From a virus: a stretch of 32,161 nucleotides of DNA. Location of the stretch: positions 1-32,161 of IMG/VR virus record IMGVR_UViG_3300030520_000083. One strand, written 5' to 3'. Of the stretch, positions 1-32,161 are shown in pieces (positions within the stretch are counted from its first letter, which is position 1; each line of letters opens with the position of its first letter). Position numbers and translations under genes: made by a program. The notes beneath the pieces were generated by a model. It searched no databases, was not told the DNA's origin, and was given only the letters and a program-made list of their open reading frames with translations.

Positions 1-127
1 GGACGTCGGCGCGGACCTCGTCGGGCGAGAGCCCCCAGCCCGCGGCCAGGACCACGGCCAGGCGGCCGAGCTGGTAGGAGTTCAGCGACACGACCCGGAC
101 GCGGTAGAACCATCGTTCCGGGCCGTC
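1..127. repeat. Terminal direct repeat, left copy (circle closure)
   Basis: Bases 1-127 are identical to bases 32035-32161. The repeat is exactly 127 bp, a common assembler k-mer size, and it falls inside an open reading frame that becomes continuous when the ends are joined. The simplest reading is that it marks closure of a circular or circularly permuted molecule of 32,034 bp and is not a biological long terminal repeat. Confidence 0.95.
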
Positions 128-722: not shown

Positions 723-1637
723 TCAGGCGAGCATGGCGGGCCGGAAGTCGATCCGCGTCATCGCCTCGCGGAGGTTGTCCATGTCGGCCGCGATGTAGTG
801 CTCCTGGGTCCTCTCGCTGGCGTGCCGGAGGATCTGCTGCACCTGCTTCGCCCCGAGCAGGAAGTGGGTCCGGGCGTGCGTCGACAGCGAGTGCCGGAGC
901 ATCAGCAGGTTCGTCCCCCCGGGCAGGCCCGCCGCGATCCCCGCCTCGTCGAGGAAGTCGGCGGGGCGCTTGCCGTTCGACCCGTTCACCCAGGGGCCCC
1001 GGCCCCGCGAGCCCGGGAATAACCAGTCCGAACCGCACCGGGCCGCCCAGGCCCGCAAGCACTCGAGGATCGCCGGCGGCACCGGGATCGTCGCCTCGGC
1101 CGCCTCGGTCTTGAGCCTCGACCGGGCGACGATCGAGAGCAACCCGGCCTCGAGGTCCACGTCCTCGACCTTCAGCCGCAACGCCTCCATCGCCCTCAGC
1201 CCGGTGTGGGCCAGCAACATCGCCAGGGCATAGAGCCGGCCGTCCTTCCAGCTCTCGGAGTGGCGGCGCTCGAGGTGGGCCAGGAGCGCCGAGATCTCCG
1301 CCCGGCTCAAGTGCCGACGCCTCGGCGACCGACCGACCCTGAGGCGATAGCTCTCGAGCTCGAACGGCGACCGGTCGAGATAGCCCCTCGAGGTCGCATA
1401 CCGGCACGCCCGGCGGAGATACGAGAGCAGCCCGTTGAAGGTGATCGGCCGCCGGTCGGGCCTCGACTCGATCCACCGGACCACGTTGGGCGGAGTCAGG
1501 TCGGCGGTCGTCGCCGCGAACTCGGCGAACTCGCCGAGCACCTGCCGCATCTTCTTCCTGGTCTTGGGGGCCTTCCGCCTCGGCGAGTAGAGCCCCAGTA
1601 ACTCGTCCTCGAACGCATTCCAGCCAATCGCACTCAT
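723..1637 (-). CDS. int: Tyrosine recombinase / phage integrase
   Basis: A 304-residue site-specific recombinase expected to integrate and excise the element. ATG 1637 is chosen because GGAGGAT lies 9 bases upstream; an in-frame extension to 1718 lacks this. The N-terminal half is a SAM-like core-binding domain (FNGLLSYLRRACRYATSRGYL). The catalytic half shows Arg I in HTGLRAMEALRL, a candidate Lys in the KTEAAEATIPVP beta-hairpin, LMLRHSLSTHA for box II, LRHAS for the second His, and the nucleophile in EHYIA. The first residue of the HxxR box is Leu here, which is unusual but known to vary in this superfamily. The putative attP with a tRNA-Thr half lies about 140 bp upstream, the usual arrangement for phage integrases. 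Confidence 0.93.
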   Translation of the reverse strand: MSAIGWNAFEDELLGLYSPRRKAPKTRKKMRQVLGEFAEFAATTADLTPPNVVRWIESRPDRRPITFNGLLSYLRRACRYATSRGYLDRSPFELESYRLRVGRSPRRRHLSRAEISALLAHLERRHSESWKDGRLYALAMLLAHTGLRAMEALRLKVEDVDLEAGLLSIVARSRLKTEAAEATIPVPPAILECLRAWAARCGSDWLFPGSRGRGPWVNGSNGKRPADFLDEAGIAAGLPGGTNLLMLRHSLSTHARTHFLLGAKQVQQILRHASERTQEHYIAADMDNLREAMTRIDFRPAMLA

Positions 1638-1774
1638 GAACACTATCCTCCGCGACACCATGAATCCGGTCGACGGAAGGGTACCCTTCGAATGCTCGCG
1701 CGGCTTGATGTTGCGCAAAGTGGGCGATCATGAACGAATCGGACGGTCGTGAGGGTTGACGAGAGATTGTCGCC

Positions 1775-1951: not shown

Positions 1952-3205
1952 TCAGTGGGAAGCGTTGGTCAGGGCCGCCCGCCGGTGCGTCGGCAAAACA
2001 CAGCCGGCGGGCGGTCTCTTCTTCCTCTTTCGATCTTCGTAACCGGGCCGATAGGGCTCGATGAAGGTCGTGAACTCACGGCCACCCACTCCCTTCGGCG
2101 CCTTCCTGGCCTTCCTCAGGCCGATCATGTAAGTTTCCAGCTTGATCTTGCCGGCGGCCAGGGCCGCCAGGACCTGGGCGTGGAACACCTTCGATCCCGG
2201 GTCGAAGATCGACATGGCCAGGTCGAACGCGAGGTCCGCGATCGCCTCGCCGTCGAGGGCCTCGCCGCCGGCGAGCCGGCGGATCCGGTTGTCGAGCAGC
2301 TCGGCCGGCGACAGCGTGACGGTCGGCTCGGCCCGGGGCACGGCCGCCGCGACGGGGACGGGGCGGGGCGGGACCTTGCCGATCCACTCGACCGGGAGCC
2401 GGCCCGCGTCTTCGAGGCTCCAGAGCGCGGACCACTGGACGAACTTCACCCGGGGGTTCCTGGCCTCCACCAGCCACCGTGCGACGTCGGCCTCGCTCGG
2501 CCCGCGTTCCGGGGGCGGCTCGGCCGCCGGGATCTGCGGGCCTTCCTCCCGCGTGAGCGCCGTAACGTTCTGTTCGTCTCCCGTTCCCTTCGTAGGTTCC
2601 AGGTTCGAACCGTTCATTGTGGGATGCGCCGGCGCACCCTCCGGAGGGTGCGCCGGCGCATCCTTGTGGGTCGCGCCGGCGCACCCTTCCTGCTCGGCGA
2701 AGGTCGCGCCGGCGCGACCTTCGAAGGCCCCGAAATCGGGCCGGTCGCCGAGGAATTTCCAGAGGAGGACGATGAACCGCCGGCATCCCTGGCGGATCTT
2801 CGGCCGGACGACGCCGAACTTCGTGGCCTCGGCCCGAAACCAGGCCCAGAACCGGCCGGGGTTCAGTCGGGCGATGTACCCGGCGGCCTCGAGTTCGGCG
2901 AGGGCGGCGAGCGTCCGGGCCTTGCCCCTGTCCTCGTAGAGGGACGCCCAGCCGGCGAACCGGGCCAGTTCGAGGGTCGAGGGGAAGCAGGAGACGTTGA
3001 GGTCGGCCAGGCAATAGAGGGCGAGCTGGGTCGCGATCACCTTGGCGTCGGAGCCGAGGGCCGTGTTCATGCAGAGGCGGTCGAATGCCACCTCGACGGG
3101 CGAACGATTCGGGCGGGTCGGTCCCGGGGGCGAGTGCTTGTCGCGCGGCGGGTACGCACCGCGATCGGCCCCGGCCATCGGGCCGGGCTTCAGGCTTGGT
3201 GTCAT
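1952..3205 (-). CDS. Winged-helix replication initiator-like protein
   Basis: A 417-residue protein. ATG 3205 follows AGAGGATC. Residues about 45-125 form a helix-turn-helix/winged-helix domain of the HTH_36 type (AKVIATQLALYCLADLNVSCFPS...LARFAG...LAELEAAGYI), a fold common in plasmid and phage replication initiators. The middle (about 160-200) is Ala/Gly/Pro/His-rich with repeats such as APAHP, because the DNA there consists of four palindromic GCGCCGGCGC units. The C-terminal part has a helical region (about 310-375) ending in a basic tail (RKRKKRP). The layout of DNA-binding N-terminus, iterons inside the gene, and C-terminal helper domain resembles lambda O. Replication initiator is therefore my best call; a regulator is possible. 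It is the second gene of the minus-strand block. Confidence 0.65.
   Translation of the reverse strand: MTPSLKPGPMAGADRGAYPPRDKHSPPGPTRPNRSPVEVAFDRLCMNTALGSDAKVIATQLALYCLADLNVSCFPSTLELARFAGWASLYEDRGKARTLAALAELEAAGYIARLNPGRFWAWFRAEATKFGVVRPKIRQGCRRFIVLLWKFLGDRPDFGAFEGRAGATFAEQEGCAGATHKDAPAHPPEGAPAHPTMNGSNLEPTKGTGDEQNVTALTREEGPQIPAAEPPPERGPSEADVARWLVEARNPRVKFVQWSALWSLEDAGRLPVEWIGKVPPRPVPVAAAVPRAEPTVTLSPAELLDNRIRRLAGGEALDGEAIADLAFDLAMSIFDPGSKVFHAQVLAALAAGKIKLETYMIGLRKARKAPKGVGGREFTTFIEPYRPGYEDRKRKKRPPAGCVLPTHRRAALTNASH
1953..2030 (+). ncRNA. Candidate short antisense RNA to the 3' end of the initiator gene
   Basis: This roughly 78-nt transcript is inferred from the promoter at 1917-1946 and a terminator-like hairpin: perfect 11-bp arms CCGCCCGCCGG (1975-1985) and CCGGCGGGCGG (2004-2014) with an 18-base loop, followed by the tail TCTCTTCTTCCTCTTT. 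It overlaps the last 26 codons of the minus-strand replication gene, so it would be a countertranscript to that mRNA. Plasmids often control initiator synthesis by antisense RNA, though usually at the 5' leader. Its size, structure and position are seen or deduced from sequence; its function is inference. Confidence 0.5.
2555..2723. other. ori: Candidate replication origin inside the initiator gene
   Basis: Four copies of the palindrome GCGCCGGCGC occur at 2626-2635, 2650-2659, 2673-2682 and 2706-2715, spaced 24, 23 and 33 bp. Copies 1 and 2 lie within a perfect 42-bp palindrome (2622-2663). Copy 4 lies at the centre of a perfect 26-bp palindrome (2698-2723). Downstream in the gene's direction (2555-2621) the DNA is clearly less GC-rich (GTAACGTTCTGTTC, TTCGAACCGTTCATTG), as expected of a duplex-opening region. 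Iterons followed by an AT-richer stretch inside an initiator gene is the lambda ori design. The repeats are direct observation; ori function is inference. Confidence 0.55.
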
Positions 3206-3298: not shown

Positions 3299-3868
3299 TC
3301 AGTCGTCGTCGTCCTCACCTCCCTCTTGCCCGCCGGCGAGCCACTCGAGGCGCCTGACGGCCTCGTCGAGCAGGTCGGGCGTGTTGGCGTAGATGTGGTT
3401 GTGGTCGGCGCGGTCGAGGAGGACGATCCCCAGCGAGTCGCCGAGCGGGACGGTGTGGATCCAGCCGAGGGCCTCGAGCGCGGCCAGGTCGTCGAGCAGC
3501 TCGGGGACGGAGCGGCCGGAGCGGTCGGCGAGGTCCTCGGGCTCGACCAGGCAATGGCACCACTGGCGGCAGTGGGCCTCGGCGAGCAGGAGCAGGGTCA
3601 GGAGCCGGGGCTCCATCGGGTTGGACTGGTGGTCGAGGAAGCCGCAGAAGACCCGGATGGTCCAGGAGTTCTCGACGTCGATCGGCTGGAAGCCGGGATT
3701 CTTCCGCTTGCCCTTGGGGTTGCGGACCGACGTCGGCGACCAGGCCGGGGCCGGCACGGGCGGCGGGGCCTGGGCCCGGGCCTGTACCGGCGAGGCGAGG
3801 CGTCGACGCCGCAGCAGCATCGAGCCGAGAGGGGTGTTCGTCGTTGAGATCGTCTTGGCCTGCGGCAT
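3299..3868 (-). CDS. Winged-helix DNA-binding protein, possible replication accessory or regulator
   Basis: A 189-residue protein and the first gene of the minus-strand block. The N-terminus is Pro/Ala/Arg-rich and looks disordered (RRRRLASPVQARAQAPPPVPAPA). Residues about 85-160 form a likely winged-helix domain: RLLTLLLLAEAHCRQW, the recognition region LADRSGRSVPELLDDLAALEALGWI, and a wing HTVPLGDSLGIVLLD. It ends in an acidic tail (GGEDDDD). The helix pattern resembles the initiator encoded 93 bp downstream, suggesting an old duplication or shared role. It stands next to the palindrome-rich divergent control region, so it could regulate it. The ribosome site is weak. No exact family is recognised. 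Confidence 0.6.
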   Translation of the reverse strand: MPQAKTISTTNTPLGSMLLRRRRLASPVQARAQAPPPVPAPAWSPTSVRNPKGKRKNPGFQPIDVENSWTIRVFCGFLDHQSNPMEPRLLTLLLLAEAHCRQWCHCLVEPEDLADRSGRSVPELLDDLAALEALGWIHTVPLGDSLGIVLLDRADHNHIYANTPDLLDEAVRRLEWLAGGQEGGEDDDD

Positions 3869-3950: not shown

Positions 3951-4021
3951 ACCGTGTGTCCTGTGTTCCGAGCGGGTAGAAGCTCCGCATCCCATCAGAG
4001 TTTGGGTCCACATTGAGTGAG

Positions 4022-4058
4022 GCCGACATCGACCCTCAAGCCGACATCGACCCCTCAA
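4022..4058. repeat. Two-copy 18-bp tandem repeat
   Basis: GCCGACATCGACCC plus TCAA is repeated with an 18-bp period (4022-4035 and 4040-4053, each followed by a TCAA-type end). It lies at the edge of the AT-richer zone and could be a regulator-binding direct repeat. Confidence 0.5.
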
Positions 4059-4368
4059 ACTTACAGCCCCATCGAGGGCCGGGCAATGTCTCCGAAGGCC
4101 GAACGCATCAGGGAACGCCAATATTTGATTTCATGCGAATAGCGGCATACGCATGTTCAGTATCATCCTTGCTTTCCAGATTCCGATTTTCTCGGGATAA
4201 TACACTCTACCCGAAAAGTGAACTTCCGGAGCACTCAATAATAATCGATGGGTCGCTTGACGCAAGCTGAAACGATGGTAATCTCGGATCGGAAAAAGAA
4301 TTGAGTTAACCGAAAATAATTCCGTACTGTTTTTTCCGCACTCGGAATGCCGAAAGGTGGAATCGCGG

Positions 4369-8743: not shown

Positions 8744-9067
8744 ATGAAAAAGCAACCGCGTGGCCATCTTTATCGACGCGCCGGATCTCGCGTGGAGATC
8801 GATCTCGACGTCGAGACAATCCGCGCTTGGCGCGACCTGATCGAAGGCGGCAACGCGAAGTTCGTGATGTACGGATACCAGTCCAGGAGGATCTACGAAC
8901 TCGAATGGCGGGGGGCGACCATCCGGGTCATCTATAACCCAGAGACGCGATATATCGTCACGATCCTCCCGATGGGATCCCAGAAGCCTCGTCGTCCCGC
9001 GAAGTGCCTGATCCGCCAGCTCCGCGCCGACGCCGACGAGCGAGGGGAGGATCAGTGGACCTCATAG
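8744..9067 (+). CDS. Small basic protein of unknown function
   Basis: A 107-residue protein from ATG 8744 (MKKQPRGHLYRRAG). The core has a beta-rich pattern ending ATIRVIYNPETRYIVTILPMG. This resembles the final strands of small RNase-fold or DUF4258-like proteins, in which a conserved R-V-x-Y and I-V-T-I-L-P close the sheet. I cannot assign a family with certainty. Its 3' end overlaps the serine recombinase start by 13 bp, so the two are translationally linked. A toxin-like nuclease is one possibility; no antitoxin partner is evident. Confidence 0.6.
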   Translation: MKKQPRGHLYRRAGSRVEIDLDVETIRAWRDLIEGGNAKFVMYGYQSRRIYELEWRGATIRVIYNPETRYIVTILPMGSQKPRRPAKCLIRQLRADADERGEDQWTS

Positions 9068-9807
9068 GTTACCGCCGGGTCTCCACGGAGGATCAAAAGG
9101 ACCGAGGGTCAAGCCTCGAGGCCCAGTCGGACAAGATCCGGGCCTTCGCCTCGGCCCATGGACACCACCTCGTCGACATCATCGACGACGGCGGCGAGTC
9201 GGCCAAGTCGCTCGATCGGCCGGGCATCCGGCGTTGCCTGGCCATGATCGCCGCCGGCCAGGTCCGGGGCATCCTGTTCTCAAACCTCGACCGGCTCACT
9301 CGCCACGTCGGCGACCTGGTCGGCCTGGTCGAGTCGCACTTCCTCGAGCCGGGCGGCCCGGTCCTGCTCTCGGCCTCCGAGCCGATCGAGACGAGGACGG
9401 CGGTGGGCCGGTTGCAGATGTACATCCTGGCCGTCGTCAGCCAATACGGTCGGGAGTCCGGGGTCGAGCGGACGGCGGGCATCATGGCGAGGAAGCGGCG
9501 GGTCGGCGAGCGGACCGGCAACCTGGCCTTCGGCAAGAAGCTCGACCCGTCCGACCAGCGCCGGTCGAAGGCCGAGCGGCCGATCGCCCTGGTGGACAGC
9601 GACGAAGATCGGGACATCCTCGCCGAGATCCTCCGGCTGAGGGTCCACGGCCTCTCGCTCCGGGCGATCGCCGACGAGCTGAACGCTCGAGGAATCCCCT
9701 CGAAGCGAGGGGTCACGAAGAGGAGTACGGGCCTTTGGTCGAAGTCGACCATCGGCGAGATCCTGAGTCGGGCCGAGTCGAAAGTGGGGGCCAATGCCGA
9801 GGGGTAA
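9055..9807 (+). CDS. Serine recombinase (resolvase family)
   Basis: A 250-residue protein starting at GTG 9055, with GGGGAGG just upstream. The catalytic N-terminal domain is clear: IGYRRVSTEDQ with nucleophile Ser10, then AGQVRGILFSNLDRLTRHVGDL with the conserved DRLTR arginines, and a helix E ending in ERTAGIMARKRRVGERTG. The C-terminal region has a recombinase-type helix-turn-helix (LRLRVHGLSLRAIADELNARGIPSKRG...LWSKSTIGEIL). It is too short for a large serine integrase, so a resolvase/invertase role, such as resolving multimers of the circle, is most likely. It is the second recombinase class on this element. Confidence 0.9.
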   Translation: MDLIGYRRVSTEDQKDRGSSLEAQSDKIRAFASAHGHHLVDIIDDGGESAKSLDRPGIRRCLAMIAAGQVRGILFSNLDRLTRHVGDLVGLVESHFLEPGGPVLLSASEPIETRTAVGRLQMYILAVVSQYGRESGVERTAGIMARKRRVGERTGNLAFGKKLDPSDQRRSKAERPIALVDSDEDRDILAEILRLRVHGLSLRAIADELNARGIPSKRGVTKRSTGLWSKSTIGEILSRAESKVGANAEG

Positions 9808-20084: not shown

Positions 20085-21989
20085 ATGGCGACTGGAACCT
20101 TCTCCGACGCTCAAATCTCGGCAGTCGGCGGCTGGACGGGCCTGTTCGACCTGACGACGGCCTCCGGCCAGCGGATCATGATCAGCGACTTCTCGTGCCT
20201 GATGACTTACATCACCGGCACGGGATTCACGCTGGCCACGACCTGCCAGGCGGGGCTCAATCCGTACATGATCTGGGTCGATGGCTCGCCGGCGGTGAAT
20301 CCGGTCGTGGCCAGCGGCGTCGTCGCGGTCACCGGCCTGGCCGAGGGGACGCACCTCGTCCGAATCGTGAGCCAGGATGGGTATGTTGGCTATGCCAACA
20401 CGCCCATGACCGGCGCGGTGCTGACGGTCACCGGGGCCGCGCCCGCGATCTCGGCGGGCTCGGACATCGGGCCCTACCACAACTTCACCGACCCGACCTA
20501 TCCCGGCGGTGCGATCTTCCAGGTCGCGAACTCGGCCAGCTACACGAACGCCACCGCCCCGCTCCCGGCGACCGTCGTCAGCCGGGCCTTGCTCTCGCTC
20601 AACGGGTCGGCAGCCGTCCGGGCGAACTGCACGGACCTTTGGGTCTACACCGCCGACTCGCACTGTGCTTATGCGATCGACGGCGGGGCTTTCACGACGG
20701 TCGCCCTGGACAACACCGGCGACGCCTTCCGGCGTCCCCGCAAGGTCGCGACCGGGCTCAGCGGCACCCACATCTACACGGTGATCCCGGGGTTCGCCAC
20801 GGCCACGCCGGTCTACCGGGGGCCGATCGGCATCATGGTCGGCGGCGGGACGGGCTTCGTCGGCACGTACAAGCCGCAGACCATCGTCCAGTACGGCGAC
20901 TCGATCACGGCCGGCGAGGACGCCACCTACTCCAGCGACCTCGACTTTTTCCAGTATGCCCATGCGTATGGGATGCTCGCGATGGGCGTCGGCGTCCCGG
21001 GCTACACGACCGCCCAGATCCTGTCCTACCTGCCGACCTGGCTCGCGGCCTTGAACGCGCCGCCAACCTACGCGGTGTCGGCAGCCGGTCGGAACGACTC
21101 GACCTCCGATTCGACGGTCCCCGGCAATTACACGGCCTGCATCACCGCCGCGCTGGCCGCCGGTGCCCGGACCGTCATCGCCCGGGGCGTCACCCCCTGG
21201 GTCTGGGCGTTGAACCCGACGCTCGCGGCGGCCGTCGCGGCGATGAACAATCCGAACGTCATCTACGTCGAGACGGACACCTGGGCCCCGATCGAGACCG
21301 GCGGCGCGGGCGACGGCAACCCGATCTCCGAAGTGACCGGCACGCACCCGACCACTTACGGCTATCAGGAGATGACGGCGTTCGAGATCCCGGCCTACGC
21401 CTCGATCCTGGGGAACCCGGTCGTCGCCTCATCCTCGACCTCGGTCGACCCGGGGATCGCCTATGTCCTCTCGCCGGCCAGCGGGGGGCCGACGAATTAC
21501 GCCATCAACGGGACGACGCTCGTCGGGACCGCGACGATCCCCCTCGCGACCACGGTGCTCTCGACCGCGCCGCACTATGGGGTCGGGGGCACGGGCTCGA
21601 CGGGGACCGTCGTCCAGCCTCCCGCCAACACGGTCCTCTCGACCCAGACCTTCGGGCCGGGCAGCACCATCGCGGGCACGGTCATCCAGCCCACAACGGG
21701 CCAGGTCGAACTCAGCGTCCCTTTCGGCCCGGGCGGCGGCCTGACCGGAACCTACTCGGCCGGGGGCGGATCGGGCCTGACGCTCGGCACGGTGATGAGC
21801 ACGCCCCGGAACGTCGCCGGGCTCGCCGACGGGCAGGTGACGGTGGCCGACATCTTCTGGGGTATCTACGCGGCGGCGGCCGGGCAGGCGGAGGTGTCGG
21901 GGACGAGCTTCACGCTCAAGACGCCGGCCGGCACCACGATCCGACCGTTCGCGCTGGACTCCGCGACGGTCCCGACCGAGAGGACGTGA
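20085..21989 (+). CDS. SGNH/GDSL hydrolase-like virion protein
   Basis: A 634-residue protein. Residues about 260-440 show SGNH blocks: IVQYGDSITAG with nucleophile Ser273, VGVPGYT for the block II Gly, AGRNDS with Asn337, and GTHPTTYGY with His421. The usual Asp three residues before the His is Thr here. The N-terminal 250 residues are beta-rich like other large esterases of this class. The C-terminal 200 are low-complexity Gly/Thr/Ser-rich strands resembling phage fibre or decoration repeats. It lies among head-tail genes, where a hydrolase is unexpected. It could be a capsid/tail-displayed esterase or depolymerase acting on host surface polysaccharide. Confidence 0.75.
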   Translation: MATGTFSDAQISAVGGWTGLFDLTTASGQRIMISDFSCLMTYITGTGFTLATTCQAGLNPYMIWVDGSPAVNPVVASGVVAVTGLAEGTHLVRIVSQDGYVGYANTPMTGAVLTVTGAAPAISAGSDIGPYHNFTDPTYPGGAIFQVANSASYTNATAPLPATVVSRALLSLNGSAAVRANCTDLWVYTADSHCAYAIDGGAFTTVALDNTGDAFRRPRKVATGLSGTHIYTVIPGFATATPVYRGPIGIMVGGGTGFVGTYKPQTIVQYGDSITAGEDATYSSDLDFFQYAHAYGMLAMGVGVPGYTTAQILSYLPTWLAALNAPPTYAVSAAGRNDSTSDSTVPGNYTACITAALAAGARTVIARGVTPWVWALNPTLAAAVAAMNNPNVIYVETDTWAPIETGGAGDGNPISEVTGTHPTTYGYQEMTAFEIPAYASILGNPVVASSSTSVDPGIAYVLSPASGGPTNYAINGTTLVGTATIPLATTVLSTAPHYGVGGTGSTGTVVQPPANTVLSTQTFGPGSTIAGTVIQPTTGQVELSVPFGPGGGLTGTYSAGGGSGLTLGTVMSTPRNVAGLADGQVTVADIFWGIYAAAAGQAEVSGTSFTLKTPAGTTIRPFALDSATVPTERT

Positions 21990-28268: not shown

Positions 28269-30104
28269 CTAGCGTCCGAGCCTGCGCTCGAGGTTGGCCA
28301 CCACCTCTCGGGCCAGGGCGAGGAGGGCGACGGTGGGACGCCGGTCCTCGTCGCACCGGAAGACGGCCTCGATCCCGTCCAGCTCGACGACGACGACTTC
28401 CGAGGTCTGACAGAACGGGGTCCGCCTCCATTCGAGGTCGGGCAGGAGGTCGACGAGCCGGGCATGGCGAGGCTCGACGACGGGCTTGGCCCGGCCCTCG
28501 ACCTCGTGGGGCTCGGCCCCCGGATAGGGGATCGAGAGGAGCGCCCTCACGCGGTCCCTGAGCTTCGCACCGTAGAGAGTCGGCCTCTTGGACCACGGAT
28601 AATCGGGGATGAAGATCGCCGGATTCTTCCCCCCTTTGTAGCCGATCCTCCGACCGTGCCAGAAGCCGGTCGTCGATCCCCCGATGCCCATCTCTGAACC
28701 GATCTTGGCGAACAGGTCCACATCGGACAGCCCTGTCTTAGCCGCCTCGGCCCATCGCTCCTCATGGCCCTGGAATATGCCGATGGCACGCCTCAGCTCG
28801 ATGTCCGCAACCTCTCCCTCCGATGGCCTCTCGGGAAGGAGGCATGCCGAGCAGAGATCCGGCTCGACCCATTGGCAGGGCCGGCCCGTCTTCTCGATGC
28901 ATTGCCGGCAATCGTCGTCGGTGCAACCGCATTCGCGGCAGGTCCGCTTCGGGGCGGGCATCACGACGGGTCCGAAGTCGAAACTTGCCACGAAGGGGTC
29001 GGGGTCGCCGGCCTCCTCTCGGATCTCGAGCAGGGCCTTCTCGAGGTTCTTGGCCTCGAGGTAGGGCCAGCCGAGGTCCATGCAGAGGACGCCCCCCTCG
29101 AGCAGGCCCCAGGCCTCGCCGGCGGACTCGATCCCATCCTTCGCGAGCCGGTTGGCCAGCGCGGCCGGGAGCCCCAGGCCCATCGCCGGCCGGTCTCTCC
29201 AGTCGGGCAGGGCCTTCGAGGGGAGGGCGGGGTTGAGCGGCCGGGGGCCCGGAATTATTCCCGGGGAATAATCCTCGGCGTCTTCGGGGGTCGGGTCGTC
29301 GGGGTCGCCCGGGTCGTCGGGCCCGGCGTTTATTCGTGGGGAATAATCCTCGGCGTCCTCGAGCTCGTTGTCGACCTCGTCGGCGGCCCTCCTCTTGCCC
29401 CACTGCTCGGTCATCGCCCGCTCGATCAGGCGATGGCGTGCCTCGGGATCTTCGACCCGGCCCAGCTCGCGGGCGACGGCGGCCGACAGCTCGCCGTCGA
29501 CGACCTGGTCGATCAGGTCCTGGGGCAGGTCGAGCAGGGCCAGGGTCTTCGAGACGCTCGGCTGCGAGATCCCCAGGTCCTTGGCGAGCCGGGCCTGCGT
29601 CCACCCCTCACGCTCGAGGAGCGACCGCATCGCCTCGGCCTGGTCGATCTGCGAGAGGTCCACCCGGGCGCAGTTCTCGACGAGCTGGTCGACGAGCAGG
29701 AGCGTGGCGTCGACCGGGCGATCGTCGACGATGCAGTCCATGGTCGCCAGCCCGGCGAGCATGGCGCCCCGGAAGCGTCGCTCGCCGGCGATCACGACGT
29801 AGCGATCGGCCGGCTCGGACCACCGGACCCGGATCGGTTGGAGCTGGCCCTTCGACTTCAGCGACTCCGACAATCGCTCGAGGGATTCCTCGTCGAAGGT
29901 CTTCCTCGGCTGGTCGGGGTCCGCGATGATCCGGTCGAGCGGGATCGAGAGCGCGGCGGCGATCCGGGCGGCGCCCTTCATCCGGTCGGGCTTCGGCGGG
30001 GCCTCGGGCTTCCCCTTCGTCTCGGGCCGGGCGACCTTGGGCCGCATCGACTCGCGGGCGTTGGCGGCGACGGCCTTGCGGAGGCTGGCGGTCTTGCTGC
30101 CCAT
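28269..30104 (-). CDS. parB: ParB-like partition protein with zinc-ribbon C-terminal extension
   Basis: A 611-residue protein, about twice the size of usual ParB. Residues about 50-190 are canonical: IPLDRIIADPDQPRKTFDEESLERLSESLKSKGQLQPI, box II GERRFRGA (107-114), ENCARVDLS (143-151) for CTP binding, and the HTH WTQARLAKDLGISQPSVSKTLALL (168-191). An acidic linker holds a duplicated EDAEDYSP phrase coded by AT-rich DNA. A 300-residue C-terminal extension carries a Cys cluster at 389, 392, 394, 399, 402, 410, 418 and 421 (zinc ribbon-like), then a domain of unknown role in place of the usual dimerisation end. It lies directly after parA. Confidence 0.88.
   Translation of the reverse strand: MGSKTASLRKAVAANARESMRPKVARPETKGKPEAPPKPDRMKGAARIAAALSIPLDRIIADPDQPRKTFDEESLERLSESLKSKGQLQPIRVRWSEPADRYVVIAGERRFRGAMLAGLATMDCIVDDRPVDATLLLVDQLVENCARVDLSQIDQAEAMRSLLEREGWTQARLAKDLGISQPSVSKTLALLDLPQDLIDQVVDGELSAAVARELGRVEDPEARHRLIERAMTEQWGKRRAADEVDNELEDAEDYSPRINAGPDDPGDPDDPTPEDAEDYSPGIIPGPRPLNPALPSKALPDWRDRPAMGLGLPAALANRLAKDGIESAGEAWGLLEGGVLCMDLGWPYLEAKNLEKALLEIREEAGDPDPFVASFDFGPVVMPAPKRTCRECGCTDDDCRQCIEKTGRPCQWVEPDLCSACLLPERPSEGEVADIELRRAIGIFQGHEERWAEAAKTGLSDVDLFAKIGSEMGIGGSTTGFWHGRRIGYKGGKNPAIFIPDYPWSKRPTLYGAKLRDRVRALLSIPYPGAEPHEVEGRAKPVVEPRHARLVDLLPDLEWRRTPFCQTSEVVVVELDGIEAVFRCDEDRRPTVALLALAREVVANLERRLGR
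29249..29272 (-). promoter_or_regulatory. 24-bp AT-rich motif, copy B, inside parB
   Basis: On the minus strand: ATTATTCCCC, four bases, ATAATTCCGG, identical to copy A outside the spacer. It also forms a perfect 9-bp dyad (ATTATTCCC-G-GGGAATAAT, 29254-29272). Candidate parS-like or operator site. Confidence 0.55.
29324..29347 (-). promoter_or_regulatory. 24-bp AT-rich motif, partial copy C, inside parB
   Basis: The left half ATTATTCCCC is perfect; the right half retains ATAA and then diverges. It lies 75 bp from copy B in the same orientation and shares the flank GACGCCGAGG with it. Confidence 0.45.
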
Positions 30105-30105
30105 T

Positions 30106-30942
30106 TCAGATCACCTCCGCGACGGAGCCGGCGGGGCAGGGGGACTCGACGAGCCCGGCACGCAAGAGGATCTCGAAGGCCAGGGCCCTCATCTCGTGGG
30201 CGGGATTCGACCGGGGCTGATACTGCTCGATCGGCCGACGGCGGGCGATCGCCTCGGCATAGGCCGCGGCCGAGGGGATGCGGGTCGTGAAGACCTTGTC
30301 GCCGTACAGCTCGCGGAGCTCGGCCTCGTACACCCGGTGGATCGACTGCCGCTTGATGACGCGCGTCAGCACGAAGCCCAGCGTCGTGAGCGTCGGGTTG
30401 ATGCTGGCCCGGACGTGGGCGGCCGACTCCTCGACCTCGGGCAGGCCCTGGCTCGCGTAGTCCTCGGGCTGGAGGGGCACGACGAGGTGATGGGCCGCGG
30501 CCAGCGCCGCCCAACTGCACAGGTGGAGGTTGGGCGGGCAGTCGACCAGGACCAGGTCATAGGCGACCGGGCCGACCTCGACCTCGTGGAGGAAGTTCCG
30601 GAGCGACGCCTGCGCCGCGATCGGGGCGTCGAACGGCCGGGGGATGTTGTGGTCGGTCGCCGCCTTCGAGCCCGGGACGATGTCCGTCCGGGGCGCGACG
30701 TTGGTGCGGATGAGGTCCTCGGGGAACGGCAGCTTCACGCCGAGGATCGCCGCGGCCGTCGAGTCGGGGTCCATGCCCCGGACCATGTCCGGGCCGAACA
30801 GCCCCTGGGAGAGCGACGCCTGCGGGTCCAGGTCGACGAGCAGGACCGACTTCCCGAGCCGGCCGAACGCGCCGGCCAGGTGGTGGCACAGCGACGTCTT
30901 GCCGACGCCGCCCTTCTGATTTAATAGTGCAATCACTCGCAT
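30106..30942 (-). CDS. parA: ParA-type partition ATPase
   Basis: A 278-residue ATPase of the deviant Walker family. ATG 30942 is preferred to TTG 30948 because GGAGG lies 7 bases upstream. Motifs: KGGVGKT (10-16), LLVDLDPQASLSQG for A-prime, and LVLVDCPPN for Walker B. It lacks an N-terminal regulatory HTH, as in the short ParA class. It drives segregation of the circular element together with ParB, encoded 1 bp downstream. Confidence 0.95.
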   Translation of the reverse strand: MRVIALLNQKGGVGKTSLCHHLAGAFGRLGKSVLLVDLDPQASLSQGLFGPDMVRGMDPDSTAAAILGVKLPFPEDLIRTNVAPRTDIVPGSKAATDHNIPRPFDAPIAAQASLRNFLHEVEVGPVAYDLVLVDCPPNLHLCSWAALAAAHHLVVPLQPEDYASQGLPEVEESAAHVRASINPTLTTLGFVLTRVIKRQSIHRVYEAELRELYGDKVFTTRIPSAAAYAEAIARRRPIEQYQPRSNPAHEMRALAFEILLRAGLVESPCPAGSVAEVI

Positions 30943-30972
30943 GTCCAACCTCCGAAATGTCAGGGGATCGAC

Positions 30973-31931: not shown

Positions 31932-32161
31932 GGCTGAGACCTCCCCGCCTCGACGGCGAATCGGGCCCGGCCCGTGTGGCGATCGGTGCCGAGATGGACG
32001 TCCTCGGCGAGGATCGGCAGGCCGTGCTCGCCGAGGACGTCGGCGCGGACCTCGTCGGGCGAGAGCCCCCAGCCCGCGGCCAGGACCACGGCCAGGCGGC
32101 CGAGCTGGTAGGAGTTCAGCGACACGACCCGGACGCGGTAGAACCATCGTTCCGGGCCGTC
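31928..32161 (-). CDS. Junction-crossing hypothetical protein (C-terminal part)
   Basis: This is the second part of the 118-residue protein that starts at TTG 250. Bases 32035-32161 duplicate bases 1-127 and should be counted once. Visible end: SYQLGRLAVVLAAGWGLSPDEV, then a charged tail to GRSQP. The stop overlaps the next gene's ATG (ATGA). Confidence 0.7.
   Translation of the reverse strand, partial: DGPERWFYRVRVVSLNSYQLGRLAVVLAAGWGLSPDEVRADVLGEHGLPILAEDVHLGTDRHTGRARFAVEAGRSQP
32035..32161. repeat. Terminal direct repeat, right copy
   Basis: Exact second copy of bases 1-127. See the left copy for interpretation as circle closure. Confidence 0.95.

Follow-up and report, generated by a model that had tools for sequence, protein, structure and literature searches.

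Origins within initiator genes

In bacteriophage lambda, the part of gene O for the N-terminal DNA-binding portion of the initiator precedes the origin, and the part for the C-terminal portion follows it. Placement of an origin inside the gene of its own initiator is already known, both from lambda ori and from oriL of phage SPP1. In lambda and the lambdoid Stx phages, four iterons of 19 bp occupy the central part of the initiator gene, adjoining an AT-rich tract (PMC7466680, PMC3985674). In SPP1, direct repeats and an AT-rich unwinding element are located within the initiator gene 38 (PMC6316719). For the HTH_36 plasmids pAES7, pMARC3, and pMOS2 of Paracoccus, the predicted oriV was placed at the rep start or upstream of it (PMC3832669). 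In the literature that we searched, there was no description of an origin for planctomycete phages or plasmids.

The locus analyzed here is probably a variant of the layout seen in lambda and SPP1. As in lambda, four repeats occur inside the initiator gene, with an AT-rich tract on one side; as among lambdoid phages, the locus and its relative L391 differ in the N-terminal domain and in the repeats over a shared C-terminal domain. The differences from lambda are several. The protein, P0001, has no detectable sequence similarity to Phage_rep_O, and the repeats consist of perfect G/C palindromes, lack A-tracts, and are spaced by 23–24 and 33 bp. The flank is moderately AT-rich, no P-like partner (helicase or loader) was recognized among the genes scanned, and the replicon is a phage-plasmid with ParAB and a probable planctomycete host. 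The likeness to SPP1 gp38/oriL is one of layout, with repeats and an AT-rich element inside the initiator gene; SPP1 differs in possessing another origin, oriR, along with a helicase and loader of its own. The Paracoccus HTH_36 plasmids share the winged-helix N-terminal domain type of several P0001 relatives and have iteron-like repeats in cis (PMC3832669), but these repeats, as described, are part of that oriV and do not lie within the rep gene.

Genomic context

The window is the entire record IMGVR_UViG_3300030520_000083 (32,161 nucleotides). It bears a 127-bp direct terminal repeat, and because its first and last 127 bases (1..127 and 32035-32161) are identical, it is a complete circle of 32,034 bp. 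Pfam and PHROG scans revealed virion genes for TerL, portal, head protease, major capsid, and tape measure proteins. Their co-occurrence with a tyrosine integrase, a serine recombinase, ParA, and ParB identifies the record as a phage-plasmid: virion, plasmid partition, and replication genes are combined on one circular record. The genes and sites considered below are as follows.

723..1718, minus strand: tyrosine recombinase (integrase; PF00589, E = 1e-17; phrog_1), directly downstream of rep
1952..3205, minus strand: Rep/initiator gene, product P0001 of 417 aa, with an N-terminal winged-helix-like domain, an Ala/Pro-rich linker whose coding sequence carries the array, and a C-terminal domain
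3299..3868, minus strand: wHTH-like gene of unknown role, upstream of rep in the same direction (weak HVO_A0114 match, E = 0.018)
28269..30104, minus strand: ParB partition protein (PF02195/PF17762), with a candidate intragenic parS
29254-29272, minus strand, with a degenerate copy at 29329-29347: the candidate parS, ATTATTCC-N3/4-GGAATAAT
30106..30948, minus strand: ParA partition ATPase (phrog_164, E = 7.5e-45)

The closest plasmid-borne matches of the window ParA come from planctomycetes, above all from Isosphaeraceae and Gemmataceae, and the phage host is therefore probably a planctomycete. The serine recombinase gene is located at 9004-9807 (plus strand). Among the structural genes, one for a large protein (20085-21989, plus strand) encodes a GDSL lipase/acylhydrolase-like domain. 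An identical terminase (100%) is present on L125 and L126, contigs of two other metagenomes, so the phage recurs in other samples.

The palindrome array in the rep gene

The rep reading frame shows coding-like GC contents at the three codon positions (0.69/0.55/0.88). It contains four copies of the core GCGCCGGCGC, starting at 2626, 2650, 2673, and 2706, and a whole-record search found this core nowhere else. The copies are embedded in three elements, numbered here in gene order and assigned to neither strand.

2698..2723: candidate iteron 1, a perfect 26-bp palindrome (core GCGCCGGCGC at 2706-2715)
2669..2686: candidate iteron 2, GGTCGCGCCGGCGCACCC (core at 2673-2682); hairpin pairing with iteron 1 is also possible
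2622..2663: candidate iterons 3 and 4, mirror copies (cores at 2650-2659 and 2626-2635) that together form a perfect 42-bp palindrome

The initial annotation had reported four palindromes within the initiator coding sequence, among them the perfect 42-bp and 26-bp ones, and every position that it gave proved exact. In gene order, the cores start at gene positions 491, 524, 547, and 571, with a spacing of 33-23-24 and in codon phases 1, 1, 0, and 0. Two reading frames are used for near-identical array DNA, which encodes GRAGAT/GCAGAT in one and DAPAHP/GAPAHP in the other.

Composition cannot account for the palindromes, because palindromes did not reach 26 bp in any of 200 second-order Markov copies of the window (the longest was 24 bp). 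The encoded peptide cannot account for them either: 1000 synonymous-codon shuffles of rep yielded palindromes of up to 22 bp, compared with 42 bp observed, and the repeat-pair statistic reached at most 15 in 300 synonymous shuffles, compared with 35 for the actual gene. The core itself, observed four times, was found at most three times in the 1000 shuffles, and that in a single one.

No DnaA box was detected within one mismatch in the region 1.5-4.3 kb. The GC skew, suggested in the initial annotation as a check on the origin, tracks the orientation of the genes, does not switch at 2.6 kb, and is uninformative in this respect.

The Rep protein

Two domains flank the linker.

2726..3118, minus strand: predicted DNA-binding domain, N-terminal and winged-helix-like (about residues 30-160), delineated by alignment and a structure model
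2093..2497, minus strand: C-terminal domain (residues 237-371)

P0001 has no match to any Pfam family at E ≤ 0.1, and hence none to Phage_rep_O (PF04492); its PHROG match to an initiator family is weak (phrog_270, E = 0.014). The HTH_36 label given to it in the initial annotation holds only indirectly. The protein does not reach the curated cut-off of HTH_36 (PF13730), but a profile built from four HTH_36-matching related Reps finds it at E = 3.4e-7. The alignment-based AlphaFold model of the N-terminal domain (pLDDT 74, pTM 0.70) is mostly helical with two short strands, and a Foldseek search with this model retrieved mostly wHTH folds (Fur/MarR, Orc1, RctB domain 1), none of them at E<0.001. 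A single-sequence fold of the whole protein had a pLDDT of 42.

When P0001 was used as a protein query, no relative emerged from genome contigs, viral contigs, phages, plasmids, or 392 Planctomycetota genomes. A profile of the C-terminal domain likewise had no match in 170 genomes representing one planctomycete order, which contains a close ParA relative.

Arrays in related replicons

Since P0001 searches gave no relatives, related replicons were reached through ParA, and further wHTH genes were collected by an HTH_36 search in the ParA-related records. The plasmids pSINAC02, pPL62-3, and pEP7_01/02 and the uncultured phage-plasmids L390, L391, L392, L394, and L396 have the same ParA/ParB family as the window. 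Most of them contain a wHTH initiator-like gene, and several contain intragenic arrays; however, the repeat sequences differ from those of the window, and pSINAC02 and the pEP7 plasmids have no significant arrays. The Reps of the relatives match PHROG initiation families, including phrog_270, with E from 9e-14 to 3e-3. Those annotated as "replication initiation O-like" are represented by phrog_391 (E = 2e-7 to 3e-3) and also by phrog_345 and phrog_678. The relatives L394 and L397 exceed the HTH_36 (PF13730) cut-off.

In eight wHTH initiator genes of ParA-linked replicons, one of them that of the window, the winged-helix domain is directly followed by a repeat array, whose sequence differs from gene to gene. 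The 180-aa wHTH ORF of L397 was left out of this count. The arrays of the seven relatives are listed below.

L390: four GGCGCCGA/TCGGCGCC half-palindromes, followed by DNA of 40% GC
L391 (32.7-kb record): GCGC.GAAACCTGCGC three times, as two full copies and a third overlapping one, followed by DNA of 38% GC
L516: four copies of GTGGAACATYCCCG
L518: four copies of ACACAACTGTGTG
L512: three copies of GGTCAATCA
L515: three copies of GGTGAAAT
L514: two copies of GCGCYRGCGC

L390 has the gene order Rep-Int-ParA-ParB, as in the window. L516 comes from the same record as L392, and its portal is also related to that of the window. The arrays of L516, L512, and L515 consist mainly of direct repeats. 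Spacing is mostly 21-25 bp. A 33-bp step occurs in the window, L516, and L518; wider steps are also present in L518, and the half-sites of L390 are paired at 10 bp. The spacing in L516 is 33-22-23, compared with 33-23-24 in the window. In most of the eight genes the repeats fall in different codon phases, which indicates that DNA rather than peptide has been kept.

The motifs used for spacing and phase were picked by eye, and the objective measure is the repeat-pair statistic alone. By this measure all eight genes stand out from synonymous shuffles, with 0-4 of 300 reaching the observed score. It replaced an earlier statistic (12-mers with two mismatches), which was too lenient in GC-rich DNA. 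For L391, whose highest score came from a Pro-rich repeat, the sequence preceding this repeat was tested again by itself, and none of 200 shuffles reached its score. Similarly low values were obtained for three of the 16 control genes, namely the window ParB, the L390 ParB, and the tape measure gene, and the two ParB cases coincide with palindromes in parB. Across twelve related loci, the window core is restricted to the window except for one copy in L503, while three other repeat types occur only in their own rep gene or are absent.

The pair formed by the window and L391 is the one example in which the N-terminal domain and the repeats change together over a conserved C-terminal domain. BLAST aligns the C-terminal domains of the two Reps at 34% identity (E = 2e-14) and finds no similarity between the N-terminal domains. 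Such a change of the palindrome sequence with the DNA-binding domain is as expected for origin specificity.

According to the initial annotation, the palindromes should be conserved as DNA where the peptide is not. What is retained among the relatives is an array at the same place in the gene, with repeats in mixed codon phases and AT-rich DNA after it; the palindromic sequence itself differs. A conserved linker lacking the palindromes had been named as evidence against the proposal, and a partial counter-example of this kind is provided by two L515-type genes from EP7 plasmids, which keep a similar linker and have no clear array. The wHTH gene of pSINAC02 has a very AT-rich stretch (24% GC) and no significant repeats.

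The AT-richer flank

A further element directly follows the array in the gene direction.

2561..2621, minus strand: AT-richer stretch, a candidate DNA-unwinding element

The lowest GC content in the rep gene, 52% compared with 71% gene-wide, is found from about 2620 down to 2561. Thus, the AT-richer stretch described in the initial annotation is real but modest, and for the window taken alone its significance is p = 0.09. Across the eight genes, the Fisher combined probability is p = 4e-4 for DNA after the arrays and p = 0.70 for DNA before them. The window flank contains TTCGAAC (2603-2609) and AACGTTA (2563-2569), and both are also present in the same region of L391 (about 1407-1445) and L514 (about 1822-1843); AACGTTA alone also occurs in pSINAC02. 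The recurrence of these two words reflects in part a shared peptide, xTLTx.

Proposed origin function and alternative explanations

Very probably, the four palindromes serve as iterons, sites for initiator binding in a theta-type replication origin that lies inside the gene, with both binding and origin activity predicted from sequence. A location of the origin inside the initiator gene fits the layout, the domain swapping, and the O-like PHROG matches of the relatives. The lambda-like reading of the initial annotation is strengthened by the arrays of the relatives, the mixed codon phases, and the AT-rich flank. Rep would bind the four G/C palindromes through its N-terminal winged-helix domain, probably as dimers, and would wrap the array, and the adjacent AT-richer stretch would open. 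The C-terminal domain, possibly the part that contacts a helicase or loader, would bring in the replicative helicase of the host or a loader. Replication in the plasmid state, beside ParAB, may be driven by this initiator as well.

Palindromes of this kind could serve other DNA-binding proteins. The phage encodes both ParA and ParB, and ParB sites are often perfect palindromes, so the cluster could be a parS-like centromere. However, a better candidate for the ParB site, ATTATTCC-N3/4-GGAATAAT, lies within parB and is common to the window and L390 (11620-11643, 11818-11835, and 11880-11899 in the latter), whose ParBs are 47% identical. The rep repeats differ between these two replicons, and they go with the N-terminal domain of Rep and not with ParB; we regard a centromere in rep as quite improbable. 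Canonical parS sites were looked for and not found. Short palindromes are also typical of dimeric repressor sites, and a wHTH gene (3299-3868) is located just upstream. The array could therefore be a set of operators through which Rep or this wHTH protein regulates transcription or copy number, in which case the actual origin would lie at another place. Such operators are improbable in view of the position of the array in mid-gene rather than at a promoter, the absence of additional copies around the rep start and in other places, and the AT-rich stretch consistently found downstream across relatives.

Two very stable hairpins are formed when the minus strand of the array is folded (-58.5 kcal/mol, z = -9.8), and these could act in mRNA or single-stranded DNA as an attenuator, a single-strand initiation site, or a cruciform site. 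But the mainly direct repeats found at the same place in L516, L512, and L515 mean that hairpins are not a shared property, which makes protein binding the likelier common one, and an Rfam search with the array matched no family; a hairpin function is highly improbable. A dispersed host element, similar to the Rickettsia palindromic elements, or a chance product of an Ala/Pro-rich peptide would be favored by Ala, Pro, and Gly codons in a gene of 71% GC and by the commonness of the core in GC-rich genomes. Yet the extended element occurs in only 13 of the 170 genomes of the planctomycete order (0-5 copies), more rarely than a reversed control. Synonymous and Markov shuffles do not yield the array, and the relatives carry unrelated repeats at the same place, so that this origin of the palindromes is barely credible. 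Among the matches listed for paired GCGCCGGCGC copies in viral and genome contigs, low-complexity or tandem repeats predominated. A reading of the 42-bp palindrome as a protelomerase site was abandoned, given the circularity of the record and a neighboring recombinase of the ordinary phage integrase type.

Implications for phage-plasmid replication

Given the known precedent, an intragenic origin is only moderately surprising. Iteron function of the array would extend the lambda and SPP1 layout to winged-helix initiators of phage-plasmids and provide a concrete candidate origin for phages and plasmids of planctomycetes. The related genes would also supply naturally occurring initiator/iteron pairs that differ in specificity. 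The rep gene alone, about 1.3 kb long, could, if active, serve as a minimal replicon for vectors in these bacteria.

A more tentative suggestion, which we put at somewhat below even chances, is that cis sites of the maintenance systems in the planctomycete phage-plasmid group studied here sit in the genes of their own readers. The iterons would lie in rep, where the N-terminal domain and the repeats would be swapped jointly as a single cassette while the C-terminal domain is conserved, and parS would lie in parB. If so, replication and partition specificity could each be exchanged by one recombination step, giving rise to new incompatibility groups.

A contig labeled as uncultured Cenarchaeum (L343, 158-1337) contains a long tandem repeat in 45-bp steps with the same GCGCCGGCGC core and is apparently unrelated. 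The wHTH profile also found two phages outside the close group, L453 and L463, in which direct repeats (TTGTGACGCTCAAA at about 4010-4060 and TGCAAAATATGCAGAC-like at about 4266-4320, respectively) come right after the wHTH domain and are followed by AT-rich DNA; judging by these two loci, the intragenic layout may be general in this class of wHTH initiators.
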